35,084 nt of DNA from an uncultured bacterium (GTDB lineage: Bacteria; Armatimonadota; HRBIN16). Shown one piece after another: positions 6,478 to 29,998 of this stretch. Within the stretch, counting starts at the first letter, position 1, and every line of letters begins with the position of its first letter. Below the pieces are notes generated by a model. It was not told the origin of the DNA. It saw only the letters and a program-made list of their open reading frames with translations, and did not search any database. Location: the NCBI GenBank assembly GCA_938027655.1, contig CALJAP010000009.1, positions 1 through 35,084 on the forward strand, in the 5' to 3' direction. The position numbers and the translations under genes were made by a program.

Positions 6478-7337
6478 GCGTGCCGCACGTGAGCGTCATC
6501 GTGCCCATGTACAACGAGGAGGCGAACCTCCCCGAACTGCACGCGCGCCTCACGAAGGTGCTGACTGGCATGGACGTCGCCAGCGAAATCGTCTATGTGG
6601 ACGACGGCAGCACCGACGGCACGCCGGAGCAACTGGAGACGCTACTACAACAGCCCCAACCGGTGTGCGTCCGCGCGGTGCGACTGCCTCGCAGGCGAGG
6701 GAAGACCGCTGCACTGTCCGCCGGTTTCGCCATCGCACGGGGAAATATCCTAGTGACCACAGACGCCGACCTGCAGGAGCCTCCCGAAGTGTTGCCCATG
6801 CTGGTCTCGCGCGTGCAGTCTGGCGAGGCGCATCTGGTGGTGGCGTGGCGACAGCAGCGGCAGGATACCCTCTTTCGTGTACTTGCCTCGCGTCTGTTCA
6901 ACGCCACCCTGCGCTGGCTGAGCGGTCTCTCCCTGCATGATGTGAACTGCGGAACCAAAGCGATGAAGCGCGAAGTGGCGGAGAATCTGGAAGGGTGGAT
7001 GGTCTCTGATATGCACCGCTACCTGCCGATCCTGGCGGCGCGAATGGGATACCGTGTCACCGAATCGCCGGTTCCTCACGTGGTGCGTCGTCGCGGGCGC
7101 AGCCGTTTTGGAGCTGGTCGTTACCTCCGGGCGATGGTGGACCTGTTTCCTGTCTCGCTGATGTGGTGGCGCGGATGGCAAGTGTGGCTGACACTGGTGG
7201 CAGTGTCCGCCTGGCTGACGGCGATGCATCGCCCACTCGGCTGGCTCGGTCTGGCGATGGCGATGGCATGGGCAGGGGGCGCGCTGGCACTTTGGTGGCA
7301 CGGCAGAGGCTTTAGTCGTCGCTACCAAGCACGGTAA
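6474..7337 (+). CDS. DPM1/ArnC-like GT2 glycosyltransferase with C-terminal membrane helices; 3' end rebuilt
   Basis: 287 residues. The GT-A domain shows VSVIVPMYNEE (6-16), VDDGSTDG (42-49), the TTDADLQEP metal site (95-103), and NCGTKAMKRE plus HVVRRRGRSRFG, which are typical of polyprenyl-phosphate mannosyl/glucosyl transferases. Two membrane helices follow. It probably makes the lipid-linked sugar used by the GT-C enzyme whose stop overlaps its ATG (ATGA). The last helix (GWLGLAMAMAWAGGAL) is encoded by 49 bases that occur again, unchanged, at 8035-8083 beyond a toxin-antitoxin operon. The final residues FSRRYQAR are read from the antisense strand of the antitoxin gene (26-base convergent overlap), so the original C-terminus seems to have been displaced. 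Confidence 0.88.
   Translation: MSVPHVSVIVPMYNEEANLPELHARLTKVLTGMDVASEIVYVDDGSTDGTPEQLETLLQQPQPVCVRAVRLPRRRGKTAALSAGFAIARGNILVTTDADLQEPPEVLPMLVSRVQSGEAHLVVAWRQQRQDTLFRVLASRLFNATLRWLSGLSLHDVNCGTKAMKREVAENLEGWMVSDMHRYLPILAARMGYRVTESPVPHVVRRRGRSRFGAGRYLRAMVDLFPVSLMWWRGWQVWLTLVAVSAWLTAMHRPLGWLGLAMAMAWAGGALALWWHGRGFSRRYQAR
7239..7287 (+). repeat. 49-bp direct repeat, left copy (inside GT2 gene)
   Basis: These 49 bases are identical to 8035-8083. They encode the last membrane helix of the GT2 enzyme. Similarity decays on both sides (about two thirds identity for some 15 bases to the right). The repeats bracket the toxin-antitoxin operon. Confidence 0.95.
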
Positions 7338-7623
7338 CCCCCACTACCTCACGCACCGCTTGCGGGTTGCGCGAAGCTATCTCTAGTAAAATGCGTGCTG
7401 CTCCTCTGGGGCGCCGCCTGCCCTGTTCCCAATTCCGCAGAGTAGAGGTACTGATACCCATCATGGCGGCAAAGCGGGATTGAGATAGTCCGAATCGCTG
7501 GCGTATCGCTTTGATGTCCAGCGGTTGCCATTCAAAAGTTCGCGAGGGAGTTTTTTGCCCGCGCAAGACGGCTCCGCCTTCGCGAACGCTGTGCACCAGC
7601 TCCTCAAACAGATTTTGATTCAT
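7312..7623 (-). CDS. HTH antitoxin of a HigBA/NadS-type TA pair
   Basis: 103 residues. The C-terminal half holds an XRE-type helix-turn-helix (LSQSRFAAMMGISTSTLRNW followed by EQGRRRP, about residues 47-73), as in HigA/NadS antitoxins that bind and neutralise a RelE-fold toxin and repress their own promoter. The N-terminal 40 residues would be the toxin-contacting part. Its ATG overlaps the toxin stop by four bases, in the toxin-first order usual for higBA. The 3' end overlaps the 3' end of the GT2 gene by 26 bases on the opposite strand. An 11-base palindrome in the promoter spacer (7974-7984) is a plausible operator. Confidence 0.85.
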   Translation of the reverse strand: MNQNLFEELVHSVREGGAVLRGQKTPSRTFEWQPLDIKAIRQRFGLSQSRFAAMMGISTSTLRNWEQGRRRPRGAARILLEIASRNPQAVREVVGVTVLGSDD

Positions 7624-7937
7624 GGATATTCCTCCTCCACAATACGACGCAGGATGTGAATTTGCTCTTGAGACAGATTGTCTCGTTCATTTTTTCGGAA
7701 GATAAACAACATGAGAATAGTATCCTGATCCACTGCCCAGAAGTATATCACGCGCACGCCGCCTCTTTTTCCCGAGTACGAGGTACTCCATCGCAGTTTC
7801 CGTAGCCCGCCGCTACCCGGTATGAGCTTCCCCAAATCTGGTCGCACGATGAGAGCTTCTTGCAAGCGACGGTACTGCTCGTCACTCAATATCTCGACCA
7901 CACGCTTTGTGAAAATGGTCGTTTCTACAAACTTCAC
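7620..7937 (-). CDS. RelE/HigB-type toxin
   Basis: About 105 residues with the RelE/ParE superfamily core: LRKLRWS, then GKRGGVRVIYFW, then ILMLFIFRKNERDNLS. Toxins of this family (HigB2-like) cut mRNA on the ribosome when the antitoxin is degraded. I chose the GTG at 7935-7937 because it follows ACAGG by five bases and gives the family's usual length and N-terminus (KFVETTIFTKRV). A longer frame reaches 7988 but would run into the promoter. It is the first gene of a two-gene operon with the antitoxin and has its own near-consensus promoter at 7967-7995. Confidence 0.85.
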   Translation of the reverse strand: MKFVETTIFTKRVVEILSDEQYRRLQEALIVRPDLGKLIPGSGGLRKLRWSTSYSGKRGGVRVIYFWAVDQDTILMLFIFRKNERDNLSQEQIHILRRIVEEEYP

Positions 7938-7966
7938 AACAACCTGTCCCCACCATTCATGCCTAC

Positions 7967-7995
7967 AGTATACGCCAATGGCGCACACTTTTCAA
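7967..7995 (-). promoter_or_regulatory. sigma70-type promoter of the TA operon
   Basis: On the minus strand TTGAAA (7990-7995) and TATACT (7967-7972) are separated by 17 bases, which is close to the housekeeping consensus. Transcription would start about 20-25 bases upstream of the toxin GTG. Confidence 0.75.
7974..7984. promoter_or_regulatory. candidate antitoxin operator
   Basis: The palindrome CGCCA-A-TGGCG lies entirely in the spacer between the -35 and -10 boxes of the TA promoter, the usual place for an autoregulating HigA-type repressor to bind. Inferred from position and symmetry only. Confidence 0.45.
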
Positions 7996-8026: not shown

Positions 8027-8139
8027 GACCCCTTGGCTGGCTCGGTCTGGCGATGGCGATGGCATGGGCAGGGGGCGCGCTGGTACTCTGGATGAGGCGT
8101 CAGCGTGCGTCCAGTAGTGCAGTGAAGATTCACGCTTGA
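8027..8139 (+). pseudogene. duplicated 3' fragment of a GT2 gene
   Basis: In one frame this reads DPLGWLGLAMAMAWAGGA, then LVLWMRRQR and a 12-residue tail to a TGA at 8137-8139. That is the last membrane helix of the GT2 enzyme ending at 7337, with a more natural basic cytosolic tail. No start or catalytic domain is attached: upstream lies only the TA promoter. It is either the original end of the GT2 gene cut off by the TA cassette, or the last remnant of a paralogous GT2 gene. Not expected to be expressed. Confidence 0.75.
8035..8083 (+). repeat. 49-bp direct repeat, right copy
   Basis: Exact match to 7239-7287, 796 bases further on, in the same orientation. The segment between contains the complete TA operon and its promoter. 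Confidence 0.95.
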
Positions 8140-21997: not shown

Positions 21998-22104
21998 CAG
22001 GTAGTCGTACGGGGTTTTGACTTTTCTGGAGAACCACGATGGAATAGGGATAGTTTGCCAGAAAGGAGAAGGGTACTTGCGTTGCATATGTTCCTGCGCC
22101 TCGG

Positions 22105-22371
22105 GTGGGGTATCGCGGCTTGCTGTCTTCCGGGCTGCTCTCCCAGATTTGGGCTGGCGGAACGCCAAAACCGATACTGCTGCTTGCTGGCGACATCGAT
22201 GGCGATAACGAGGTGACCCCCTTTGACTTCGGCAGGCTGGTGTCGGCGTTCGGCAGCTTTGCGGGCGAAGAACGCTATGATATCGACGCCGACCTGGACG
22301 GCGATGGCGAAATCACCCTGTGGGACCTCGGCTGGCTGGTGAACCACTTCGGGATGATAGGCGACGAGTGA
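22105..22371 (+). pseudogene. orphan dockerin type I module
   Basis: The frame ends with a typical dockerin: DIDGDNEVTPFDFGRLVSAF, a short linker, then DADLDGDGEITLWDLGWLV and NHFGMIGDE. Each half has the calcium-loop pattern DxDGDxxVT/IT followed by a helix. Dockerins normally close large secreted proteins, but here only about 30 residues precede it and they do not look like a clean signal peptide in any frame. The GTG at 22105 is a formal start without a ribosome binding site; AAGGAG at 22063-22068 serves no start in this frame. I read it as the surviving 3' end of a larger gene. The 500-base gap from 21927 to 22433 otherwise holds only the PEP-CTERM promoter. Confidence 0.65.
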
Positions 22372-22387
22372 GCATAGCTGCTCTCCC

Positions 22388-22417
22388 TTGTTTCCAGAGC
22401 AGCGTGCATGGTATGAT
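22388..22417 (+). promoter_or_regulatory. possible promoter of the HEPN-MNT chimera
   Basis: TTGTTT (22388-22393), 18 bases, TATGAT (22412-22417). The message would begin about ten bases upstream of the ATG at 22434. The -35 box is weak. Confidence 0.4.
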
Positions 22418-22433
22418 AGGCAGGGTGTCGAAA

Positions 22434-22874
22434 ATGTCGCGAGTCGCTGAGGAATGGCTAGAGCAGGCTGAGTACGACCTGGAGACAGCAGAGCACATGT
22501 TGTCTACAGGACGCTACATGGCTAAAACAGCACCCTCCGTTGAACGCATCATCCACAGATATAGGGAACAGCTCATCCAACTAGGCATTCGCCCTCAGAA
22601 AATCGTGCTATTTGGTTCCTACGCCGAGGGCACTGCGGACGAATGGAGCGATGTAGACCTCCTCGTCATCTCCCCAGATTTTGAGGGAATGGAAATGCTC
22701 CAGCGTCTGGAAGCACTCGGCATCGCAGCAGCTCGCATCTGGGAGCCAGTGGAAGCGCTTGGATATACCCCCGAAGAGGTCAGCCATACAGAAACTGCTA
22801 CTTTCCTATACGAGGTTTTGCATACCGGCATCGTGATATGGGAGGAGGAAAAAGGGACGGTCAGTTTAACCTGA
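22434..22874 (+). CDS. chimeric ORF: first helix of a HEPN protein fused to an MNT nucleotidyltransferase
   Basis: 146 residues. Residues 1-28 (SRVAEEWLEQAEYDLETAEH plus MLSTGRY) are the standard opening of small HEPN proteins, which normally continue for about 100 residues more with a conserved histidine-containing core. Here the frame passes straight to an internal Met29 (ATG 22518), from which a whole minimal nucleotidyltransferase runs: KIVLFGSYAEGTADEWSDVD is the GSx10Dx[DE] catalytic motif. In HEPN/MNT modules these are two adjacent genes, where MNT neutralises the HEPN ribonuclease, in some systems by adding AMP. The simplest reading is an in-frame deletion of the HEPN gene's body, leaving a fused frame. 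The MNT part could also be made alone from 22518 (AGGA six bases upstream). An intact pair is at 29067-29998. Confidence 0.7.
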   Translation: MSRVAEEWLEQAEYDLETAEHMLSTGRYMAKTAPSVERIIHRYREQLIQLGIRPQKIVLFGSYAEGTADEWSDVDLLVISPDFEGMEMLQRLEALGIAAARIWEPVEALGYTPEEVSHTETATFLYEVLHTGIVIWEEEKGTVSLT

Positions 22875-22904
22875 CTCCTTGCTCCCCCTCCAAGCGAGGA
22901 AATG

Positions 22905-22929
22905 CCCCCTCTCCCGGTGGGAGAGGGGG
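22905..22929. terminator. perfect 11-bp hairpin between the chimera and ppdK
   Basis: CCCCCTCTCCC (22905-22915) pairs with GGGAGAGGGGG (22919-22929) around a GGT loop. It lies 14 bases beyond the ppdK stop and 30 beyond the chimera stop. No U-run follows on either strand, so it is either a bidirectional stabiliser or a member of the same repeat family as 20583-20604, with which it shares the GGGGTG-rich tail. Confidence 0.5.
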
Positions 22930-22942
22930 TTGGGGGTGAGGT

Positions 22943-25621
22943 CTACTTGTCCACTGTCACCGCGACCTTGTCCTTAATCGCTACCTGCGCAGCCGCGAGG
23001 CGGGCAATCGGCACGCGGAACGGCGAGCACGACACGTAGTCCAGCCCGACCTCGTGGCAGAACTCAATGGACGACGGCTCGCCGCCGTGCTCCCCGCAGA
23101 TGCCCAGCTTGATGGTGGGGTTCACCTTGCGGGCGTCCTCCACGCACATCCGCATCAGCTTGCCCACGCCGTTGCGGTCTAGTTTCTCGAACGGGTTAGC
23201 AGGCAGGATGTCCATCTCCACGTACTTCTGCAGGAACTTGCCCTCTGCGTCGTCACGGCTGATGCCGAAGGTGGTCTGCGTGAGGTCGTTCGTGCCGAAG
23301 GAGAAGAACTCGGCGTGCTGGGCGATTTCGTCGGCAGTCAGAGCCGCGCGAGGGATTTCAATCATGGTGCCGAACTTGTAGTCGACGTCCTCACCAGTCT
23401 CCTCCACCACCGCCTTCGCCACCGCTTCGAGCTTCTCCCGTACGAACACCAGCTCGTGCACGTCGCCCACCAGCGGGATCATAATCTCGGGATGCACGTC
23501 AATACCGCGTCGCTTCACTGCCACCGCTGCCTGCAGGATGGCGCGCACCTGCATCTCCACGATCTCGGGGAAGAGGATGGAGAGACGACATCCGCGCAAG
23601 CCCAGCATCGGGTTGAACTCGCGCATGCCCTCAATCGCCTCCAGCAGGTGTTCCTTCTCGGCAAGCAGACCCTCCAGCGCCTTGCCACCCAGTGCCTTCA
23701 CCGCCTGGCGCAGCTCGGTCACCTCGCGCAGAGTCTGCTCGTAGCTGGGCAAGAACTCATGGAGCGGCGGGTCGATGAGGCGGATAGTCACAGGGCGACC
23801 CTCCATCACCTCGAAGATGCCCTCGAAGTCCTTCTGCTGAACGGGCAGGAGCTTATCCAGCGCAGCGCGTCGCTGCTCTTCGGTGCGTGCCAGAATCATA
23901 TCTTGCACTACCGGCAGACGGTCTTGCTCGAAAAACATGTGCTCGGTCCGGCACAGGCCGATACCCTCCGCGCCGAACTCCACCGCCTGCTTGGCATCGC
24001 GCGGATTGTCGGCGTTGGTGCGCACACCCAGCTTGCGACGCTCGTCCGCCCAATCCAGCAGCTCGTGCAGCTCGTCGGTGAACATGGCTTCCACCAGCGG
24101 CGCCTGTCCGAGAATGACCTCGCCGGTAGAGCCGTTGATGGAAATCCAGTCGCCCTCCTTCACGGTGACGCCGTTGGTGGTGAACTCGCGCTTGTTGAGG
24201 TCGATGGAAATCGCCTCGCAACCCGCCACGCAGGGGATGCCGAACCCGCGTGCCACCACCGCCGCGTGGCTGGTCATGCCACCGCGTGCAGTCAACACAC
24301 CCTTCGACGCCAGCATGCCGTGAATGTCGTCTGGGGTGGTTTCGGGACGTACCAGGATGACCGGCTCGCCCTGTCCACGCTCGGCAGCAGTATCGGCATC
24401 GAAAACCGCCTTCCCGACCGCCGCGCCCGGCGAAGCCGCCAGCCCCTTCGCGATAACGTCCACCTTCGCCTTGGGGTCAATCTGCGGGTGCAACAGCTGG
24501 TCGATATCGCTTGGCTTCACGCGCAGGATGGCTTCATCTTTGCTGATGAGCCCCTCCTTTGCCATATCCACCGCGATTTTGACCGCCGCCAGCGAAGTGC
24601 GCTTGCCCACACGACACTGCAGGATGAACAGGCGGTTCTTCTCGACGGTGAACTCGATGTCCATCATGTCGCGGTAGTGGTTCTCCAGCAGCTTGGCAAT
24701 CTCGTCAAACTGCCGGTAGATTTCGGGGTTGATGGACATCAGCTCGTCAAGGTGCATGGGGGTGCGGATACCCGCCACCACGTCCTCGCCCTGCGCGTTG
24801 ACCAGATACTCACCGTACAGCGTCTTCTCACCGGTTGCCGGGTCGCGGGTGAACGCGACGCCGGTGCCCGAGTCGTCCCCCATGTTGCCGAACACCATCG
24901 TCTGCACGTTGACGGCGGTGCCCAGGTCCCAGGGAATGCCTTCACGCTCGCGATACACCTGAGCGCGCGGGTTGTTCCACGACTTGAAGACCGCCTCGAT
25001 AGCTAGCTGCAGCTGCTCGAAGGGGTCCATCGGGAAGTCCCTGCCGGTCTCCTCCTTCACCAGCGCGAGGTAGTCCTGACACATCTGCTGGAGAGCATCG
25101 GCGGGCACTTCAGTGTCCAGCGTCACGCCCAGCTTCTGCTTATACTCGTCCAGAATCTGCTCGAACTTGTGCCGCTCCACACCCAGCACGATGTCCGAGA
25201 ACATCATGATAAACCGGCGGTAGGCATCGTAAGCAAAGCGAGGGTTATTCGATTGCTTAATCAAGCCCTCCACCGTCTGGGCGTTCAGTCCGAGGTTGAG
25301 AATGGTGTCCATCATGCCGGGCATCGAGAACTTCGCGCCCGACCGCACCGACACCAGCAGGGGGTTCGCCGGGTCGCCGAAGTGGCGCCCCATCCGCCTT
25401 TCTACCTCCGCCATCGCAGCGCGCACTTCGTCCATCAAGCCATCAGGAAACTTGCCGCCGCTGCGCAGGTACTCCATACATACTTCGGTGGTAATCGTGA
25501 ATCCCGGAGGAACCGGCAGACCAATGTTGGTCATTTCCGCAAGGTTTGCACCCTTGCCGCCCAGAAGGTCGCGCATCTGGGCGTTTCCTTCCTCGAAGAG
25601 GTACACACGCTTATTCGCCAT
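22943..25621 (-). CDS. ppdK: pyruvate, phosphate dikinase
   Basis: 892 residues, full length. It interconverts pyruvate + ATP + Pi and phosphoenolpyruvate + AMP + PPi, serving gluconeogenesis or PPi-linked glycolysis in the cytosol. The N-terminal nucleotide-binding domain is clear (LLGGKGANLAEMTNIGLPVP, 19-38; VSVRSGAKFSMPGMMDTILN, 90-109). The swivelling phosphohistidine domain has His452 in GGMTSHAAVVARGFGIPC. The C-terminal PEP barrel has GEHGGEPSSIEFC and the proton-donor Cys865 in SCSPFRVP. The segment LQCRVGKRT has Cys where most relatives have Thr. I start at ATG 25621 (MANKRVYLFEEG), which matches the family; the open frame extends 20 codons further but those residues are not conserved-looking. 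A promoter is at 25703-25730. It appears monocistronic. Confidence 0.97.
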   Translation of the reverse strand: MANKRVYLFEEGNAQMRDLLGGKGANLAEMTNIGLPVPPGFTITTEVCMEYLRSGGKFPDGLMDEVRAAMAEVERRMGRHFGDPANPLLVSVRSGAKFSMPGMMDTILNLGLNAQTVEGLIKQSNNPRFAYDAYRRFIMMFSDIVLGVERHKFEQILDEYKQKLGVTLDTEVPADALQQMCQDYLALVKEETGRDFPMDPFEQLQLAIEAVFKSWNNPRAQVYREREGIPWDLGTAVNVQTMVFGNMGDDSGTGVAFTRDPATGEKTLYGEYLVNAQGEDVVAGIRTPMHLDELMSINPEIYRQFDEIAKLLENHYRDMMDIEFTVEKNRLFILQCRVGKRTSLAAVKIAVDMAKEGLISKDEAILRVKPSDIDQLLHPQIDPKAKVDVIAKGLAASPGAAVGKAVFDADTAAERGQGEPVILVRPETTPDDIHGMLASKGVLTARGGMTSHAAVVARGFGIPCVAGCEAISIDLNKREFTTNGVTVKEGDWISINGSTGEVILGQAPLVEAMFTDELHELLDWADERRKLGVRTNADNPRDAKQAVEFGAEGIGLCRTEHMFFEQDRLPVVQDMILARTEEQRRAALDKLLPVQQKDFEGIFEVMEGRPVTIRLIDPPLHEFLPSYEQTLREVTELRQAVKALGGKALEGLLAEKEHLLEAIEGMREFNPMLGLRGCRLSILFPEIVEMQVRAILQAAVAVKRRGIDVHPEIMIPLVGDVHELVFVREKLEAVAKAVVEETGEDVDYKFGTMIEIPRAALTADEIAQHAEFFSFGTNDLTQTTFGISRDDAEGKFLQKYVEMDILPANPFEKLDRNGVGKLMRMCVEDARKVNPTIKLGICGEHGGEPSSIEFCHEVGLDYVSCSPFRVPIARLAAAQVAIKDKVAVTVDK

Positions 25622-25702
25622 ATCCTTCCACCCATCACCTAGAGTTTTGCCTTCGCCTGTCAGCGAAAGGGAGCGGAGCAAAGTAGCACACCGCCCCTAT
25701 AT

Positions 25703-29066: not shown

Positions 29067-29489
29067 CTACGATTGCTCGTCTATCAAATGACGACAAACT
29101 TCCAGAACGAATCCTGCCCTTTCCAGCGCATCCCGCGCGTCGTGCTCGAAGTATAGCTCTTCCGGCGGCAGGTTGAGCACCTCATCCCCATAGAAACTGC
29201 GCTCGCGCTCCGCACTCAGCGAGCGCGAGATTGAAGCCAGTCGGGGAATGTGCCCGGCAAAACTCGCGGGGAAGCGGTGGCTCTGCTGTCTGAGCACAGC
29301 ACCAACGTCATGAAGGCGTGGCACATCAACCCCAGCCCACCATAATGCTGCTTTCAGCGCAAGTTCAACCACCTCCTGAGAGCGGCGCACTACCAGGTTC
29401 CATGCCCCTCGCTCGCAGAGAAGTTGAGCCTCTTCCAGTATCCGCTGCGCTCTCTGCAGGTTAGCACGCGCAGCCGTATGGTTGTTCAC
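29067..29489 (-). CDS. HEPN domain protein of a HEPN/MNT pair
   Basis: 140 residues, all helical. ANLQRAQRILEEAQLLCERG, then VVRRSQEVVELALKAALWW, then ERSFYGDEVLNLPPEEL and ARDALERAGFVLEVCRHL match small HEPN proteins (PF05168 group). In HEPN/MNT modules such proteins are the ribonuclease toxin or a degenerate partner. The RX4-6H catalytic motif is not clearly present, so activity is uncertain. It begins with a GTG that overlaps the stop of the nucleotidyltransferase gene (GTGA) and is thus the second gene of the pair. Confidence 0.85.
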   Translation of the reverse strand: MNNHTAARANLQRAQRILEEAQLLCERGAWNLVVRRSQEVVELALKAALWWAGVDVPRLHDVGAVLRQQSHRFPASFAGHIPRLASISRSLSAERERSFYGDEVLNLPPEELYFEHDARDALERAGFVLEVCRHLIDEQS

Positions 29490-29998
29490 AGCTCTATCAC
29501 CTCCCCAGGGTGAAAGTCAGGCTTCAGGTCCCAGTAGCGCACCTTGCCGAGCCTCTTTCGCTGAGCACCCAGCGCCTGTAATCGTTCCCTGAGACGCCGC
29601 AGGATGCTTGCGAAAAAGTCGCCGCGGTCATACAGTAAGAGCGCATCCTCCGTCATGTCGAGGTAAGGTGGTATAGTGTGTTGCGCCTCCGCTTCGGTCT
29701 TCAGTATCTCGGAGAAGTCCGAATAGCACCCTTGCTCCCACAGTGCACCAAGTTCCGGTTGAATGCGCGTGCGTACCGGCTCCAGCACCTCGTACCTTCG
29801 GAAAATCCCTTCGGGTAATTCGCGACAGATAATGAGCAAGTCGATGTCGGAACCAGGCGAGCCTTCTCCGCGCGCCACAGAACCGTAGAGGACGACGGAA
29901 GTGAGGTTTTCGCCCAGCACCTCCTCCGCAATCTCCGCGTACCGTTGCGCCAGAGAGCATAGAATCCGGTTGATGTCGGTTAATATCTGCTCACGCAT
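29486..29998 (-). CDS. MNT-type nucleotidyltransferase of a HEPN/MNT pair
   Basis: 170 residues. The catalytic motif VVLYGSVARGEGSPGSDIDL (about 35-54) with GS and DxD is intact. The 100-residue C-terminal part is helical with acidic and aromatic patches, and ends in WDLKPDFHPGEVIEL. In characterised HEPN/MNT systems the nucleotidyltransferase is the antitoxin, either by binding or by adding AMP to the HEPN partner. It is translationally coupled to the HEPN gene downstream. The ATG has only a weak ribosome binding site. A divergent relative of the MNT part of the chimera at 22434-22874. Confidence 0.87.
   Translation of the reverse strand: MREQILTDINRILCSLAQRYAEIAEEVLGENLTSVVLYGSVARGEGSPGSDIDLLIICRELPEGIFRRYEVLEPVRTRIQPELGALWEQGCYSDFSEILKTEAEAQHTIPPYLDMTEDALLLYDRGDFFASILRRLRERLQALGAQRKRLGKVRYWDLKPDFHPGEVIEL

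Follow-up and report, generated by a model that had tools for sequence, protein, structure and literature searches.

In class I HEPN/MNT modules, MntA transfers AMP to a tyrosine of HepT, and class II pairs are described as lacking the RNase motif and as still needing validation as toxin-antitoxin systems (both points from the accessible part of PMC7641770). The same distinction between the two classes is repeated in the accessible part of a 2024 Legionella paper (PMC11586414). Orphan antitoxins are common in Klebsiella, where an anti-addiction role has been proposed for them (PMC7192599, available sections), and complete HEPN-MNT fusions are also known (PMC3710099, in the portion available). 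As for a chimera between a truncated HEPN and an MNT, none is named in the titles or abstract openings of the literature searched.

We analyzed a stretch of 35,084 nucleotides, hereafter the window, from an uncultured bacterium of the Armatimonadota (HRBIN16; assembly GCA_938027655.1, contig CALJAP010000009.1). In the following, G000 designates the genome of the window, the other G numbers the genomes of its relatives in the phylum and the L numbers the surveyed loci. The original prediction described, at 22434-22874, a HEPN head running in frame into an intact MNT (minimal nucleotidyltransferase) domain, and its coordinates, its reading frame and both of its parts were confirmed. Translation of the plus strand gave an ORF of 146 residues with no internal stop. 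Its first segment, at 22434-22517 (+), consists of the start codon and the first 28 codons of a former HEPN gene, and this 28-residue head by itself matched the Pfam HEPN family PF05168 (25.2 bits, E 2e-5, profile positions 1-24 of 117, for a cut-off of 22 bits). The second segment, at 22518-22874 (+), is a complete MNT domain that begins at its own ancestral start codon and whose frame is open; in a profile search, residues 43-85 matched NTP_transf_2 (PF01909) at 44.3 bits. The GSX10DXD nucleotidyltransferase motif (GSYAEGTADEWSDVD) is intact at 22614-22658 (+), corresponding to residues 61-75, and the G, S, D and D of this motif do not vary across an alignment of 10 sequences. The structure predicted with 10 sequences in the alignment has an MNT fold with one long extra helix in front (mean pLDDT 85.6), and a weak hinge (residues 26-31, pLDDT <50) is located exactly at the junction. 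The best solved structural matches of the predicted fold were 2rff, 7bxo and 8xeo, which are nucleotidyltransferases and MNT antitoxins. Upstream of the ORF, a -10-like hexamer, TATGAT, is found at 22412-22417 (+), 16 nt before the HEPN start codon. This hexamer is aligned in G004, G002 and G008, and the upstream DNA is common to the window, G004 and G002. A consensus promoter scan found no promoter on the plus strand here; we infer a -10 element from conservation alone.

Among the described systems, class II HEPN/MNT pairs (COG2250/COG1708) are the kind from which the head and the MNT derive. The ORF possesses a PF01909 MNT with its GSX10DXD intact, and the HEPNs of the related genomes G002 and G009 are devoid of RX4HXY, as reported for class II in the accessible part of PMC7641770. 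However, the focal HEPN body is deleted and the locus is hence not a pair: of a complete adjoining PF05168 HEPN, it retains only positions 3-31 of 128 (L087), with no other HEPN sequence at the locus. The class I, type VII system HepT/MntA (Shewanella SO_3166/SO_3165) shares with the focal MNT its motif and its predicted fold (PDB 7bxo, 6m6u), but the focal protein reached 36.6 bits on the NCBIfam MntA model, below the cut-off of 60, and is accompanied by no HepT with RX4HXY. Complete HEPN-MNT fusions (PMC3710099, Table 1, in the portion available; also L156, L157 and L227) likewise hold both domains in a single frame. In those fusions the HEPN is whole, in contrast to the 28 HEPN residues, the first helix alone, of the focal ORF. 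Finally, as in the Klebsiella orphan antitoxins of PMC7192599 (available sections), an antitoxin is kept without a working toxin: the ORF of the antitoxin, a role presumed from its family, is intact and the cognate toxin gene is absent or broken. The focal antitoxin differs in that the first helix of its lost toxin is fused to it in one frame.

Intact relatives of both genes allowed the origin of the ORF to be traced. Two genomes of the same genus, G002 and G009, carry intact pairs of the focal subfamily in the order HEPN then MNT, with a whole PF05168 HEPN before the MNT (72.2 bits in G002 and 81.2 bits in G009), and in both the two genes overlap in different frames. The HEPN start is separated from the MNT start by 359 nt in G002 and G009 and by 358 nt in G004, compared to 84 nt in the window. 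An alignment to the intact pairs, as advised with the original prediction, shows that the 275 nt present in G002/G009 and lacking in the window follow HEPN codon 28 and extend up to the start codon of the MNT, with the deletion junction at 22517-22518 (+). The proposed in-frame deletion of the toxin body was thus correct for the deletion of the body but not for its being in frame, since 275 is not a multiple of three and the MNT was shifted into the HEPN frame. That the product would be antitoxin-only, as also proposed, is supported by the existence of these same-subfamily intact HEPN-MNT pairs in two genomes of the genus. The head derives from the own partner of this MNT, given that its residues 4-28 are identical at 20 of 25 positions to the HEPN relic adjoining the closest MNT relative (G004), that the window MNT is 70% identical to the G004 MNT and that the upstream DNA is common. 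At the DNA level, positions 22401-22520 (head and upstream region) and 22519-22780 (MNT) each align at 74% to neighbouring blocks of one G004 locus, where approximately 270 nt lie between the two blocks. Because both parts align to neighbouring blocks of a single locus, the joining of the HEPN head and the MNT is not due to chance. As an observation in its own right, the presence of intact, broken and deleted versions within one genus shows a single deletion step unusually clearly.

Taken together, the ORF is very probably the remnant of a mobile class II HEPN-MNT pair (PF05168 + PF01909) of which the toxin was deleted and the orphan antitoxin left. By comparison with the intact relatives, a 275-nt deletion removed HEPN codon 29 through to the MNT start while sparing the -10-like element as well as the start and first helix of the HEPN, and the MNT, which normally overlaps the HEPN end in the other frame, now follows the HEPN head in the same frame. 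Translation may now be driven by the HEPN start region and yield an MNT of 146 residues that has gained a helix at its N-terminus, and this product would keep its nucleotidyltransferase site and have lost its cognate substrate, leaving an orphan antitoxin. A promoter, a start and an active site are plausibly still in place for this orphan MNT. The orphan would be either slowly decaying or at most an antidote versus related modules circulating in the genus, because no close HEPN relative was found in this genome. The closest HEPN of the window's genome to the G002 HEPN is 31% identical and adjoins its own MNT (L086), and no partner for the orphan MNT appears evident in this genome.

How far such a remnant is still alive has then to be weighed. 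It may be a dead pseudogene, neither expressed nor selected and merely uneroded so far, which we consider a real possibility although a doubtful one. The remnant lies in a segment of approximately 500 bp (22401-22905) that is extra by comparison with the corresponding site of G004 (contig 4); there, a dockerin-ended gene is followed by approximately 60 bp and then by the end of the PPDK gene. In the window, the ORF at 22943-25681 is what we take to be this PPDK (pyruvate phosphate dikinase). The dockerin end of a larger gene is found at 22105-22371 (+; PF00404, 28.9 bits), and the body of this gene, approximately 2 kb in G004, is missing here. In the sister species G003 (91-93% DNA identity), the region corresponding to window positions 22031-22900 is absent, including the dockerin end, and 6 bp separate the flanks. 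As the dockerin gene is present in relatives, the region was probably lost in G003, so its absence there is no sign of a recent gain of the fusion in the window. With the dockerin body lost here and the whole region lost in G003, the neighbourhood seems deletion-prone, which fits plain decay. Decay is also suggested by the G008 MNT, likewise without its HEPN, which differs from that of G002 by 10 nonsynonymous and 9 synonymous changes, one of which lies beside the active site (DIDL to DIDP, next to the DXD motif); the G008 genome gave no match to the focal HEPN. A dead gene would nevertheless have to be reconciled with a fully open frame, an intact motif and no visible acceleration in the window. 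Indeed, pN to G002 was 0.287 for the window MNT and 0.306 for the G004 MNT, and the former does not visibly evolve faster than the latter; synonymous sites between G000 and G004 were saturated (pS 0.77).

A different fate would be that of an active antidote-only (anti-addiction) gene guarding against related HEPN-MNT modules that move within the genus, which we regard as rather unlikely. Six of the 10 genus genomes carry the focal MNT or a remnant of it, with at least four distinct sites involved, and Klebsiella offers a precedent in orphan antitoxins with confirmed inhibitory activity and a proposed anti-addiction role (PMC7192599, available sections). However, class II pairs are still to be validated as toxin-antitoxin systems (PMC7641770, accessible part). 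The original prediction pointed to one possible target, an intact pair 6 kb away, composed of a HEPN gene at 29067-29489 (-; PF05168, 68 bits) and an MNT gene at 29486-29998 (-; PF01909, 37 bits). Its neutralization by the focal product found no support, as this pair belongs to another subfamily: its MNT matches the focal MNT at 38% over 61 residues, and its HEPN has no significant similarity (E 12) to the G002 HEPN of the focal subfamily.

The open frame, intact motif and conserved start region would also be expected of a functional minimal fusion, in which the HEPN helix would have been retained because it serves a new regulator encoded by one gene, perhaps by holding the MNT dimer or a new substrate; we judge this improbable. 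According to the original prediction, repeated occurrence of the junction with conserved spacing would speak for such a fusion and a single case for deletion. When the fusion was used as a query against 291 genomes of the phylum (E 1e-12 or better), 13 genomes matched, and the head and the MNT were jointly covered only in the window's own match. Similarly, the only one of the 73 HEPN loci of the genus with head and MNT in one frame is that of the window. The form seen in the window is thus a single case (1 of 291 genomes) and by that reasoning a deletion, yet shorter head relics exist in G008 (clear) and in G039 (probable), with a spacing that is not conserved. The flanks of G008 and G002 are 90% identical. 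In G008, approximately 12 relic HEPN codons come after TATGAT and run straight into the start codon of the MNT, and the HEPN has lost its own start codon.

In G039 (L014), the MNT probably begins with a peptide derived from a HEPN head of approximately 14 codons, its N-terminus matching one HEPN head of the focal type at 7 of 11 residues. The surveyed loci comprise 13,681 distinct start-codon peptides, of which three scored 7 (L014, another MNT start and an unrelated start), one, a HEPN, scored 8, and three, the templates themselves, scored 11. As another MNT start also scores 7, an MNT start can evidently match by chance. On a 14-position HEPN head profile, L014 obtained -8.1, a value reached by 255 of 1124 N-termini that brings no support, whereas its score of 10.4 on the first 6 profile positions, reached by 26 of 1124 N-termini with the HEPN genes left in the set, supports a head origin. 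A Pfam search of L014 found no HEPN; a HEPN-tail frame (KLIAWIRED) just upstream of the MNT start speaks for the head origin. At all three head-MNT junctions (window, G008 and the probable one of G039), the relic is in the MNT frame, a result expected 1 in 27 times if frames were random and one that favors a working fusion. Against this, the heads differ in length (28, approximately 12 and approximately 14 codons), the missing HEPN start codon of G008 indicates that the relic need not be translated, and the hinge at the window's junction is predicted with low confidence.

An assembly or chimera artefact is very improbable: the genome is a draft of 219 contigs, but a single cognate pair is the source of both parts and of the upstream DNA, and the parts are joined at a coding-meaningful point, mid-contig and between syntenic flanks. 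That the head could simply be the usual N-terminus of this MNT subfamily, an outcome against which the original prediction was to be checked, has practically no chance and was ruled out, as the MNT of G002, G004 and G009 starts at a homologous codon (ATG/GTG) and the head lies in the separate frame of an upstream HEPN gene. As regards a phage or viral origin, this was also rejected, a viral-contig scan having given 4 pattern matches and no relative.

The focal gene is an ordinary relic, a toxin deletion that left an orphan antitoxin with a toxin stump, and its interest comes from the recurrent HEPN loss around this locus and from the test material that the focal family offers for class II pairs (the intact pairs of G002 and G009 and the orphan MNT). 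In G004, the MNT frame is whole and the HEPN is interrupted by a stop immediately behind its start codon and by a later frameshift. In G008 the HEPN deletion ends at the MNT start, and in G019 the HEPN is frameshifted and the MNT whole. Loss of the HEPN body is recurrent in the subfamily, and in G004, G008 and G019 the HEPN losses are independent, with the MNT kept open. At the site occupied in G002, G001 retains no more of the MNT than its C-terminal half. A census covered every PF05168 locus of the genus set (73 loci in 10 genomes), and lesions of both genes were scored symmetrically. Both genes were whole at 55 loci, the HEPN was broken and the MNT whole at 10 (among them L125, which has lost part of its DXD motif), and the HEPN was broken with the MNT broken or absent at 6. 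The HEPN was whole at two loci with the MNT broken (L123) or absent (L092). The corresponding asymmetry in a two-sided binomial test gave p 0.012 for 10 to 1 and p 0.039 for 10 to 2.

Another 93 loci, taken from 18 further genomes after the idea was formed and classed by eye from the table at approximately 80% profile coverage and not blind, gave 5 loci with the HEPN broken and the MNT whole (L162, L177, L185, L187 and L207) to 1 of the reverse kind (L228), which is not significant alone (p 0.22). Dropped from this count were L184 and L217 (ambiguous), contig-edge loci, weak HEPN matches, loci with a broken HEPN and no whole MNT, and long ORFs (L154 and L238, for instance); L175, L183, L192 and L213, with a whole HEPN and no MNT, were left out as possibly another HEPN kind. 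Both sets combined gave 15 to 2 (p 0.002), or 15 to 7 (p 0.13) when these four loci and L092 are counted as MNT losses. The asymmetry is no more than suggestive; it leans towards the HEPN being the partner that does harm in class II pairs and that has to be lost first. The HEPN would go first because an earlier loss of the MNT would leave the harmful partner uncontrolled, and natural lesions that spare the MNT are in this respect indirect genetic evidence for the HEPN having to go first. This bears on two questions about class II pairs, whose HEPN is without the RNase motif of class I: whether they act as toxin-antitoxin systems, and which partner harms, points that PMC7641770 (accessible part) presents as awaiting tests. 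In the broadest form, class II modules would repeatedly shed their HEPN with the MNT still translated, the deletions often ending at the MNT start and leaving a short in-frame head. We hold this general scheme to be unlikely; if true, it would make the HEPN the harmful class II partner and the antidote-only MNT a selected, anti-addiction state.

Several further observations were made in the surveyed loci. Many of the stops, frameshifts and truncations in HEPN genes appear to lie near profile positions 45-60, about where helix 2 ends (L084, L090, L093, L101, L114, L127, L150, L162, L187 and L217). In L113 and L128, which come from two genomes and have opposite gene orders, the HEPN frameshift is at almost the same profile position (approximately 79). 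The whole PF05168 HEPNs of L175, L183, L192 and L213 have no MNT detected nearby and may work with a different partner; two of them, L175 and L192, belong to a single genus. In other genera of the phylum, one frame can encode both a complete HEPN and a complete MNT domain (L155, L156, L157, L189, L222, L227 and L236). Among the 150 MNT matches listed for the genus genomes, 84 have no PF05168 HEPN within 500 nt, PF05168 being the only HEPN family searched.

Two other features of the window deserve mention. The dockerin unit of approximately 180 bp, present at 22105-22371 as the stump of a larger gene, has >100 matches across the 10 genus genomes. In addition, a 63-nt direct repeat (94%) at 7233-7295 and 8029-8091 flanks a RelE-like/HTH gene pair at 7312-7988 (-). 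The ORF whose 3' end holds these repeats is presumably glycosyltransferase-like, and the position of the gene pair at this 3' end looks as if a toxin-antitoxin insertion had duplicated the end of the gene.
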